From assembly GCF_002019695.1 (NCBI RefSeq), contig NZ_KV917376.1, positions 3,128,040-3,192,039 on the forward strand: a DNA stretch of 64,000 nt. The letters run 5' to 3'. Below, piece by piece: positions 28,174-45,790 of the stretch. Source of the DNA: Evansella clarkii. GTDB taxonomy: Bacteria; Bacillota; Bacilli; Bacillales; Salisediminibacteriaceae. The position numbers and the translations under genes are program-made. The notes under the pieces are model-generated. The model was not told the origin of the DNA. It worked only from the letters and a program-made list of their open reading frames with translations, and ran no database searches. Position 1 is the stretch's first letter. The number at the start of each line of letters is the position of its first letter.

Positions 28174-28404
28174 AAAAAAATCCTCATCTTCATGATGAAG
28201 AGAGGATGATTAGTTAATATATGTCCCACTCCGGCGCTGCCCTAAGTGCCTTAAAACCCGCTCTCGCAGGTGGGCATTCTCACCTTGCTTCCCAGCTTCC
28301 CTTTAAAAGGGCATGCTGTTCCCCAAGTTTATTGAACTCCCTGTATAAAACGCATCGGTTTAAGACAACATGAGCTGACGCTCGTCGCAGGGTTTGTTTA
28401 ATGC
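28174..28404 (-). ncRNA. ssrS: 6S RNA (SsrS) candidate
   Basis: An untranslated transcript with its own promoter and terminator, folding as a long rod by hand pairing. Closing arm: GCGU-CA-GCUC with GGGC-A-GCGC, then UGUCUUAAACC with GGUUUUAAGGCA (one bulge). A large central bubble follows, whose 3' strand can form an AGGUG/CACCU or CCUGC-GAGA-GCGGG hairpin. The terminal arm is CUUG...CAAG, CAGC...GCUG, CCCU...AGGG. This open-complex-like layout, the CUUAAACCGAU box and the AGCAUGCCC segment are what I know of 6S RNAs, which bind and inhibit the housekeeping RNA polymerase. Terminator: AUCCUC...GAGGAU and a U-run at 28174-28210. No covariance search was run. Confidence 0.72.
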
Positions 28405-41449: not shown

Positions 41450-41870
41450 TGTCGCTTAAAGACAACCACTGATGTTTGAGTAATCGCTGCATCATTATGA
41501 TGTAGAGGAAAGTCCATGCTCGCACAGTCTGAGATGGCTGTAGTGTTCGTGCCTGGCGAAGTCATAAGCCAGGGTAGTCCGGTTTTTTACTGGGCTAACG
41601 GCAGGGAAAGCACCTAAGTCCTTATGGATATGGGGCGAATACCTTGAAAGTGCCACAGTGACGAAGTCTGGTTAGAAATGGCCAGAGTGGAACGAGGTAA
41701 ACCCCACGAGTGAGAAACCCAAAATTTGGTAGGGGCATCCCCAGGAAGGAAATGAACGGAATGGGGAACAGACAGATGTCTGTAGACAGATGATTGCTGC
41801 CCGAGTCCGAGGTTTGACAGCCGCTTGCAGGACGACGGTACAGAACATGGCTTACAAAACAAAAGTGGCG
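41450..41870 (+). ncRNA. rnpB: RNase P RNA, type B
   Basis: Catalytic RNA that matures tRNA 5' ends. Conserved blocks are near-identical to the B. subtilis RNA: GTAATCGCTGCA, AGAGGAAAGTCCATGCTCGC, GTGTTCGTGCCTGGCGAAG, GAAAGTGCCACAGTGACGAA, GTAAACCCCACGAGTGAGAA and TAGATGATTGCTGCC-like sequence, ending in ACAGAACATGGCTTACA. P1 forms between CCACT-ga-TGTTT (41466 on) and AAACA-aa-AGTGG (ending 41868). Mature ends are therefore about 41465 and 41869. Promoter and terminator are present. Confidence 0.97.
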
Positions 41871-41895: not shown

Positions 41896-41928
41896 ACTCT
41901 GCAGCTTCTCAGGCTGCGGAGTTTTTTC
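41896..41928 (+). terminator. Terminator of rnpB
   Basis: ACTCTGCAGC / GCTGCGGAGT stem (one T-G pair), then TTTTTTC. Confidence 0.9.
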
Positions 41929-42065: not shown

Positions 42066-42715
42066 TTTGCTGGACAAATATTTGGAGAATCGGCCTGATT
42101 TGTCCAGAATAAATGATTTGCTGGACAAATTCCGCATCAAATGGATAAATTTGTCCGGAATAACTCCCTATTTTTAACATTGATTACATAATTAGTATTT
42201 ATCCTGGGCGATTATTTGGAGAATCGGCTTGATTTGTCCAGAATAAGGAGTTTGCTGGACAAATATCGGAGGCAATGAGCAAATTTGTCCAGAGTATATG
42301 ATTTGCTGGACAAATTCCCAAAGAAACTCTCAAATTTGTCCAGAGTAGAATCCTTTTTTTTAGCGATAATTACATAATTAGTATATTTTCTGCGCAATTA
42401 TTTGGAGAATCGGCTTGATTTGTCCAGAATAAGGAGTTTGCTGGACAAATATCGGAGGCAATGAGCAAATTTGTCCAGAGTATATGATTTGCTGGACAAA
42501 TTCCCAAAGAAACTCTCAAATTTGTCCAGAGTAGAATCCTTTTTTTTAGCGATAATTACATAATTAGTATATTTTCTGCGCAATTATTTGGAGAATCGGC
42601 TTGATTTGTCCAGAATAAGGAGTTTGCTGGACAAATATCGGAGGCAATGAGCAAATTTGTCCAGAGTATATGATTTGCTGGACAAATTCCTCCTCAAAAG
42701 AAAAGATTTGTCCAG
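42066..42715. repeat. Nested array: 51-bp hairpin units inside 186-bp tandem repeats
   Basis: Fills most of the gap between rnpB and ypsC. The core is a perfect 10-bp inverted repeat, ATTTGTCCAG-N13-CTGGACAAAT, separated from the next by an 18-bp spacer (51-bp unit). Units are packed into a 186-bp block repeated in tandem from 42211, 42397 and 42583: the first two are identical over 186 bp, the third breaks off after about 107 bp. An older, diverged block (about 42075-42210) is about 136 bp, shorter by one 51-bp unit. Identity of neighbours shows recent expansion. The repeated 61-codon minus-strand frames in it are by-products. Confidence 0.93.
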
Positions 42716-42929: not shown

Positions 42930-44072
42930 TTGAATTCAGTAACATTAATCGCTACAGCGGCGATGGGACTGGAATCTATCGTTGCTGATGAAGTCAAGGC
43001 GCTCGGTTATACGGATATCAAAGTAGAGAACGGGAAGGTTATTTTTGAAGCAGATCCATCAGGTATTGCGAGGGCTAATCTCTGGCTCAGAACAGCTGAC
43101 CGGGTAAAGCTTCTCGTTGGGGAATTTAAGGCCCTGAGCTTTGAGGAGCTGTTTGAACAGACGAAAGCACTGCCGTGGAATGAATATATATCAGAAGACG
43201 CGGAATTTCCGGTTATCGGCCGTTCTGTAAAATCAAAGCTTTTCAGTATTTCCGACTGCCAGGCGATCGTTAAAAAAGCTGTGGTGGAAAGCTTAAAGCA
43301 GCAATACCATGTACAATGGTTCGAAGAAAAAGGGCCGCTGCAGAGAATTGAAGTTGCCCTTCATAAAGATATAGCCCAGCTCACAATCGATACGAGCGGG
43401 ACAGGCCTTCATAAACGGGGCTACAGGTATCTTCATAATGAAGCTCCATTAAAGGAGACGCTTGCTGCAGCTCTAATAAAGCTTACGAAGTGGAATCCTG
43501 ACAGGCCGTTCGTTGACCCATTCTGCGGTTCAGGAACATTGCCAATCGAAGCAGCAATGATTGGTCAGAACATCGCTCCAGGCATCAACAGGGAGTTCGC
43601 CTTTGAAAACTGGTCCTGGTATGAACAACGCTGGTTTGACGCTGCTCTTGAGGAAGCGGAGGATCTGGCGAAGTATGATCAGCCTCTGGATATCGAAGGT
43701 TTTGATATTGATCATAATATGATTGAGCTTGCGTCCAATAATGCTATGGAGGCTGGATTTCCTGATCAAATTAAGTTTAAACAGATGCAGGCAAAGGATT
43801 TCCGGACAACCAAAGACTACGGAGTCATCGTAGGAAACCCGCCATATGGCGAACGGATGCAGGAGAGAAAATATGTAGAAAAGCTTTACAGAGAAATGGG
43901 AGAAACATTCCGCCCTCTTGATACATGGTCCGTTTATGTGATTACTTCCAACGAAGACTTTGAAGAACTTTACGGAGCTAAAGCTACAAAGAAACGTAAG
44001 CTCTACAATGGGAATATTAAAACAGACTATTATCAGTATTGGGGAAAACGCCCGCCGCGGAATAAAAATTAA
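42930..44072 (+). CDS. ypsC: THUMP-domain rRNA guanine-N2-methyltransferase (YpsC, RlmL/RlmK type)
   Basis: 380 residues. N-terminal THUMP RNA-binding region (about 60-160), then a Rossmann methyltransferase: DPFCGSGTLPIEAAMI is the SAM motif, GFDIDHNMIELASNNAM binds the ribose, and GNPPYGERMQ is the NPPY catalytic motif of N-methyltransferases acting on guanine. It probably methylates 23S rRNA. TTG start with AAGGAGGAG. In B. subtilis it lies beside rnpB; here the hairpin array separates them. Confidence 0.93.
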   Translation: MNSVTLIATAAMGLESIVADEVKALGYTDIKVENGKVIFEADPSGIARANLWLRTADRVKLLVGEFKALSFEELFEQTKALPWNEYISEDAEFPVIGRSVKSKLFSISDCQAIVKKAVVESLKQQYHVQWFEEKGPLQRIEVALHKDIAQLTIDTSGTGLHKRGYRYLHNEAPLKETLAAALIKLTKWNPDRPFVDPFCGSGTLPIEAAMIGQNIAPGINREFAFENWSWYEQRWFDAALEEAEDLAKYDQPLDIEGFDIDHNMIELASNNAMEAGFPDQIKFKQMQAKDFRTTKDYGVIVGNPPYGERMQERKYVEKLYREMGETFRPLDTWSVYVITSNEDFEELYGAKATKKRKLYNGNIKTDYYQYWGKRPPRNKN

Positions 44073-45523: not shown

Positions 45524-45790
45524 GTTGTCTAGCTCCAGCGACGAGCGTTTACATCACGAGTATGCTTCGAGTTGTCTCGACGGATACGCCCCAAAGCGCT
45601 ACTAGAAGAGGAAGAGACAGCTACTCGAGGTCACTTCAGGCATTTCAGAAGCCAAAGAGCGGCTTCTATCAAAGTCCTTCCAGTGCTTGGACCTGCGATT
45701 ACTCGGTCCAGGTAAAGAGTGCTCCTGCGGTTACTCGTCGCAGGTAAAGAGTGTCGCTCGTGACCAAGGCGCTTGCACTTTTCTTTATAA
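45524..45790. repeat. Dispersed Bacillaceae-type intergenic repeat
   Basis: About 267 bp from GTTGTCTAGCTCCAGCGACG to GGCGCTTGCACTTTTCTTTA. These end words resemble a TAGCTCCAGCGCC...GGCGCTTGCGCTTTTC repeat I remember from many Bacillus genomes. The interior contains GCTTCGAGTTGTCTCGACG (45564-45582) and AGAGGAAGAGACA (45607-45619), shared with the repeat at 11817-12025, and local repeats GGACCTGCGATTACTCGGTC / CCTGCGGTTACTCGTCGC. Its end overlaps the last codon of the HesB-like gene. Confidence 0.75.

Follow-up and report, generated by a model that had tools for sequence, protein, structure and literature searches.

Dispersed arrays of paired inverted half-sites in Evansella clarkii and a half-site geometry recurring among the 52-nt tandem repeats of Bacillales

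The intergenic array located between rnpB and a ypsC-like gene in Evansella clarkii is one member of a genome-wide family of repeats, which belongs to the published and unexplained class of 52-nt tandem repeats (Subirana and Messeguer, 2021; PMC8161180). New is the finding that an inverted half-site, namely TTGTCC-N17-GGACAA, recurs in arrays of 51- or 52-bp period across bacterial families. Regarding function, the array could be a cis-acting, helically phased DNA platform for a putative DNA-binding protein of two-fold symmetry, a reading to which we give about an even chance of being right. The window, i.e. the whole stretch of DNA analysed, spans 64,000 nucleotides of contig NZ_KV917376.1. 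The initial annotation, made from these letters alone, took the array as a single locus and recognised neither the dispersed family nor its place in the known 52-nt class, nor the half-site common to arrays of several bacterial families.

In the window, the array (42070-42715) is composed of 11 units of 38 bp each with the form CTGGACAAAT-N18-ATTTGTCCAG, connected by N13 linkers between units of one block and by N45 or N46 linkers between blocks (Table 1). The arms ATTTGTCCAG/CTGGACAAAT, the 13-nt and 18-nt spacings, the 51-bp unit and the 186-bp block are all present as first described; the original assignment of repeat unit and spacer has to be revised, the natural unit being the one enclosing N18, with N13 and N45/46 as linkers. 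One block had correctly been recognised as shorter by a unit, since the first block contains two units and not three (spacing of 134 vs. 185-186), and three of the four blocks begin with a unit whose left arm has decayed. The identity reported between neighbouring blocks is indeed an exact repeat but its length of 186 bp was too short, the true run extending over 294 bp at a shift of 186, which indicates a recent tandem duplication. Likewise, rnpB does form the upstream flank but a terminator-like hairpin stands between it and the array, which ends about 215 bp upstream of the ypsC-like gene. At gathering thresholds, an RNA-family search of the window returned two matches, rnpB and 6S RNA, the latter at 28219-28396 on the minus strand (RF00013, 73.8 bits). 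The single-contig genome of the sister species carries a comparable array at the corresponding site, which makes it unlikely that the whole array results from misassembly; the block number given here is that of the assembly.

Table 1. Features of the rnpB-proximal array and of its flanks, in window coordinates.
Feature	Position	Strand	Remarks
rnpB, RNase P RNA class B	41472..41859	+	RF00011, 323 bits
Hairpin and T-run resembling an rnpB terminator	41896..41927	+	by eye; array starts past it
Unit 1, block 1: CTGGACAAAT-N18-ATTTGTCCAG	42070..42107	+	
Unit 2, block 1, right arm ATTTGTCCGG	42121..42158	+	block 1 has two units only
N45 inter-block linker	42159..42203	+	
Block 2	42204..42343	+	units 42204-42241 (left arm decayed, CTGGGCGATT), 42255-42292, 42306-42343; N13 joints
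294-bp exact run, shift 186	42211..42504	+	copy at 42397-42690
N46 linker, block 2/3	42344..42389	+	
Block 3	42390..42529	+	units 42390-42427 (left arm decayed, CTGCGCAATT), 42441-42478, 42492-42529
N46 linker, block 3/4	42530..42575	+	
Block 4	42576..42715	+	units 42576-42613 (left arm decayed), 42627-42664, 42678-42715
THUMP/RlmL-like methyltransferase gene (ypsC-like), downstream flank	42930..44072	+	

The search for further copies suggested in the initial annotation reveals that the window array is not unique. When used as query against its own genome (5.48 Mb), 80 matches were obtained, those listed being all on contig 1, and units are dispersed over at least 27 places including the window (26 others were fetched), with five or more units in 23 of them and a single one in two; beyond these places lies at least one further single unit (L105). 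The pattern TTTGTCCAG-N5..30-CTGGACAAA has 78 matches in the genome against 1 for its backwards control, which excludes a chance origin of these pairs, and the spacing among the matches listed is N13, rarely N14. Over the 27 places, N18 is exact in 209 of the 216 units counted by a search tolerating up to 3 mismatches per arm and loops of 17-19, criteria that are biased towards conserved arms and lengths. The gaps between units are N13 (136 cases), N45 (40), N46 (5), 11 or 14 (3) and 95-97 bp (7), the latter looking as if one unit was lost. Usually, three units joined by N13 form a block and blocks are joined by N45, giving a period of 185. The spacer letters vary from array to array while the lengths hold, with a weak consensus by block position as judged by eye. 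In scans with exact arms, no match was found in viral contigs and one stray unit, in a Thermosynechococcus MAG, was found in named genome contigs, a set that may omit near genomes.

Within the bacterial family, core units are present in 2 of 35 genomes, namely E. clarkii (162 matches) and its congener G018 (118 matches), where N18 is exact in 147/153 units. At the rnpB-ypsC site, G018 bears a related array and the gaps of G014, G016, G017, G019, G020 and G021 are without it, the G015 locus falling short of rnpB. By their flanks, 19 places are orthologous between the 27 of E. clarkii and 22 of G018, the latter being those fetched from the match list and not a full census. The predicted variation in copy number is encountered at 18 of the 19, where unit number is unequal, the comparison being between sister species and not strains; besides, one G018 array matches a single unit in E. 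clarkii (L080/L105). Eleven places are unmatched, and in six of them compared with the other of the two species, four have no unit, one a single unit and one a lone half-site, with no target-site duplication seen by eye between flanks that have diverged. An inverted duplicated segment, lying at about 217 kb and 2349 kb of contig 1 (L024/L036) and identical at 99.9% over 1.86 kb with a further 0.84 kb at 99.6%, takes one family array to a second place.

This instability, together with the 294-bp tandem duplication in the window, supports the main and serious rival of the platform, that is a selfish or mutational turnover without host function, where tandem duplication and gene conversion would operate at tolerated intergenic sites and the spacing would be inherited from an ancestral 185-bp unit. 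Such copying, i.e. concerted evolution, could also give conserved arms and lengths. We nevertheless consider turnover alone rather unlikely, as several figures do not fit it well. Between non-orthologous arrays, even the best-matching loops disagree at 56% of positions, while loop lengths stay fixed. Given the 0.117 indels per substitution of orthologous non-coding flanks, which differ by 8.7%, the 816 substitutions in N18, N13 and N45 predict about 95 indels vs. 30 off-length spacers in both genomes, a count that excludes the 95-97 bp gaps and misses units outside the 17-19 window, which biases the comparison. The same half-site and spacing also recur in about ten families. Conservation resides in the core and not in the loop: over the 19 orthologous arrays, arm cores differ at 78 of 2144 sites (3.6%), with 8.2% at arm position 1 and 22.8% at position 2, and spacers differ by 19.0% for N18, 18.8% for N45 and 12.3% for N13, loop differences being minima as they are taken from best matches inside the orthologous array after units without equal-length partner were dropped.

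The 52-nt tandem repeats were described in Bacillus and other Firmicutes as constant in size, with no sequence conservation and of unknown function, the authors proposing either small RNAs or the polymerisation of a protein along the DNA (PMC8161180; see also PMC6749651 and PMC8625621). Their length of 51-53 nt is that of the 51-bp step inside blocks, and by its whole period of 185 the window family is a variant of the class. Several unrelated families of the same length per genome are a further trait of the class, and Tandem Repeats Finder uncovered, in both E. clarkii and G018, other intergenic arrays with unrelated letters and a period of 51-52 bp or multiples. The restriction to two of the 35 genomes, with 19 orthologous places, agrees with repeats depicted as species-specific and partly conserved among close genomes. 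The authors' claim of no conservation across species, which is their description and not a condition for membership, does not extend to TTGTCC-N17-GGACAA, common to about ten families. By eye, TGTCC-N17-(G)GACA can be read in Table 1 of PMC8161180 itself, in two B. coagulans families, a pair in which the G of (G)GACA is changed, and in one family of B. thermoamylovorans. In G016, from the same genus as E. clarkii, an array exhibits the signals GGTCATCAT and CAATGCT listed for B. cellulosilyticus in the same paper.

Other repeats were observed along the way. Beside a lone window-family unit, another intergenic family consists of 28 copies of a 52-bp repeat (L021:2148-3617) with the motifs CTTGAG/CTCAAG and TCTTGCA/TGCAAGA, and has relatives in G018 (L088, L096 and L099). 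Repeats of 40-42 or 82-84 bp (TTGCGAA, TTCGTTGATT and similar) occur in the window at 868-976 as well as at L086:3109-3600, L091:3342-3517 and L093:2509-2687, and make up a second class by length, close to four turns of the helix. A short palindromic repeat, CCTGCGATTACTCGTCGCAGGTAAAGAGTGCT, is present in about two copies at 45692-45753 of the window and also at L088:5110-5171, with a related form at L038:1784-1876.

Regarding geometry, perfect inverted hexamers in 35 arrays of about 52 nt are found almost only at odd spacings, most commonly 17 (13 arrays), 15 (12), 23 and 25 (11 each), in a tally where nested hexamers are not independent and which leans to N17, as the arrays come from 20-kb stretches of which 7/20 were placed on known TTGTCC arrays. 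In the published table, perfect hexamer pairs are present in 11 of the 18 families of exactly 52 nt, every spacing being odd in all 11, and one 54-nt family is even-spaced. With odd spacings, the dyad generally falls on a base pair. A 17/23 spacing taken as a law for all 52-nt families is unsupported, since 3/37, 5/35 and 15/25 also occur and 9/35 arrays have no qualifying pair; odd spacing holds more widely.

Across 299 genomes of the order, TTGTCC-N17-GGACAA has at least one match in 112 and five or more in 21, vs. five or more in 4/299 for the control. These 21 genomes, which were selected for five or more N17 matches, span about ten families (according to the labels of the tool) and total 480 matches at N17, 368 without E. 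clarkii, against 46 for the control, 130 for spacings 2-16 (8.7 each) and 266 for spacings 18-48 (8.6 each). The matches fetched from other families are mostly within arrays of 51- or 52-bp period or multiples. In these loci, which were seeded on N17 and several of which overlap, duplicates being removed by sequence, 79 pairs are at N17, one at N18 and one each at 41, 54 and 59, and the spacing on the way back is 23 (46 cases), 22 (13) or 24 (1). As none of 228 sampled genomes from other orders has five or more matches, the highest count being 4, this TTGTCC form seems to be restricted to the order. A literature search, with most subscription papers outside its reach, returned no paper on this half-site.

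Mutations in one arm of a unit arise independently of those in the other, a behaviour that favours DNA half-sites over a conserved RNA stem. At the one variable arm position, 42 one-sided and 4 two-sided changes are counted among 171 distinct units of E. clarkii (3.6 two-sided by chance), and 55 one-sided and 26 two-sided among 139 of G018 (20.6 expected), with the pair kept in 17 of the 26. Compared to shuffles, paired arms at this position amount to 126 vs. 126.0 over N18 and 61 vs. 64.0 over N13 in E. clarkii, and to 36 vs. 35.3 over N13 in G018, all three being at the level of the shuffles; the remaining comparison, N18 in G018 (75 vs. 63.0, p 0.007), falls to 75 vs. 71.0 (p 0.10) once shuffled within arrays, its excess being a between-array difference. 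The individual arm, cNGGACAAAT, behaves like a separate site. Among the four functions initially offered, a protein-binding array or a nucleoid or replication element is favoured, and a source of structured RNA loses ground on account of this independence. If RNA were the functional form, arrays would be transcribed and the inverted arms would form hairpins acting as sponges or processed small RNAs, as could be suggested by the reported transcription of 52-nt repeats in B. coagulans (PMC8161180; PMC8625621), by a 186-nt block folding somewhat better than shuffles (z -2.15; 6/200 as good) and by inner arm extensions that, by eye, are often mutually complementary in other species. This is improbable given that the two arms show no covariation within arrays of the window family, that inspection by eye shows a terminator-like hairpin ahead of the array at five places (window, L030, L032, L078 and L080) and that a stem does not need a fixed loop length.

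The placement of the arrays was assessed relative to genes called from long ORFs and not from annotation, the window array and L021 (without right-hand ORF) being omitted. With a baseline of 78 convergent, 378 tandem and 107 divergent gene pairs, 11 of 25 arrays in E. clarkii lie between convergent genes (odds ratio 4.9, p 0.0004) and 0/25 between divergent ones (p 0.013), the corresponding figures being 7/22 (p 0.029) and 1/22 (p 0.098) in G018. The placement of the E. clarkii arrays counts in favour of the platform, and the rarity between divergent genes also in favour of turnover at tolerated sites. The enrichment between convergent genes is what would be expected of supercoil management, in which arrays at gene ends would attract gyrase or a DNA-bending protein to sites of positive supercoil accumulation, as for the enterobacterial BIME-2 elements. 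The length of DNA wrapped by gyrase is close to the 140 bp covered by a three-unit block. For the 34 classified arrays of the general 52-nt class, the excess between convergent genes is not significant (7/34, p 0.31; 1/34 divergent, p 0.019), which speaks against this explanation, and we hold it for distinctly improbable.

Returning to the platform, the unit would present two inverted half-sites, with core TTGTCC/GGACAA, at a fixed distance, and each pair would be bound by one two-fold symmetric protein, probably a dimer. The steps of 51, 83 and 135 bp correspond to 4.90, 7.98 and 12.98 turns at 10.4 bp, and the whole block period of 185 bp to 17.79 turns; near-whole turns for a few distances arise easily by chance. 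With unit steps of 51-52 bp, and of 83 or 135 bp across linkers, close to whole turns, dimers would be displayed on nearly one face of the DNA, from which they may polymerise or bridge, and the platform could thereby organise intergenic DNA or insulate gene ends. Fixed lengths with free letters, independent conserved cores, helical steps near whole turns and an order-wide recurrence make a platform for a symmetric protein fit; the binding of a protein, its belonging to a single conserved family in the order and a structural rather than regulatory role are what we infer from them. Some 52-nt families without clear dyad count against it, i.e. the nine arrays without pairs and a published set in which a dyad surpassing shuffles at 0.05 is present in 8/27 consensus sequences, and a single sequence-specific protein cannot explain several different half-site families in one genome without paralogues. 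A broader and unlikely proposal, advanced here tentatively, would be that a single, diversifying family of dimeric DNA-binding proteins uses the 52-nt satellites of Bacillales as its platforms, with half-site letters varying between paralogues or species and a geometry that would be kept, namely half-sites placed as in the TTGTCC form 17 and 23 bp apart, a dyad on a base pair and five turns per repeat. If true, the satellites would make up a so far undescribed system that organises chromosomes throughout the lineage and is addressed by sequence. A binding protein, if one is found, would add a new factor to the chromosome architecture of this large bacterial order. PMC8161180 leaves open why 52-nt repeats whose length is constant and whose sequence seems arbitrary should occur by the dozen in some Firmicutes, and a defined half-site with a defined spacing makes this question directly testable by experiment.

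Among known systems, the closest are the 52-nt repeats (PMC8161180), with which the window family shares a length of 51-53 nt in blocks, several unrelated families per genome, a non-coding location, species specificity, an unstable copy number, and short signals together with their reverse in a repeat. It differs by blocks usually of three, a period of 185, the 10-18-10, 13 and 45 geometry, and a half-site of fixed spacing common to families, whereas PMC8161180 reports no sequence conservation. CRISPR arrays also have short conserved repeats and fixed-length spacers, but here the arms are inverted, spacers repeat and N18, N13 and N45 recur within an array, and at least 27 places are occupied in one genome, so that the early dismissal of a CRISPR stands. 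BIME-2/REP elements are made of alternating inverted motifs with two alternating fixed linkers, and are intergenic, located at gene ends and variable in copy number. All these features are shared with the window family, whose motif differs in being a 10-bp non-palindromic arm. By eye, the ends of its units are free of the GTAG or CGTC tag (for the tag, see in part PMC3733652). A Y1/RAYT transposase as driver was rejected, since Y1_Tnp shows no association (19/22 array-rich vs. 18/22 comparison genomes, one of the latter, G016, bearing 52-nt arrays of another motif) and the array-rich G117 (62 N17 sites), G248 and G297 have no Y1_Tnp. Finally, centromere-like iteron arrays of the parS/parC kind are phased tandem sites for a DNA-binding protein. 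Phased tandem sites are likewise displayed by the window family, for which the DNA-binding protein is putative, but its arrays are dispersed round the chromosome at tens of places.
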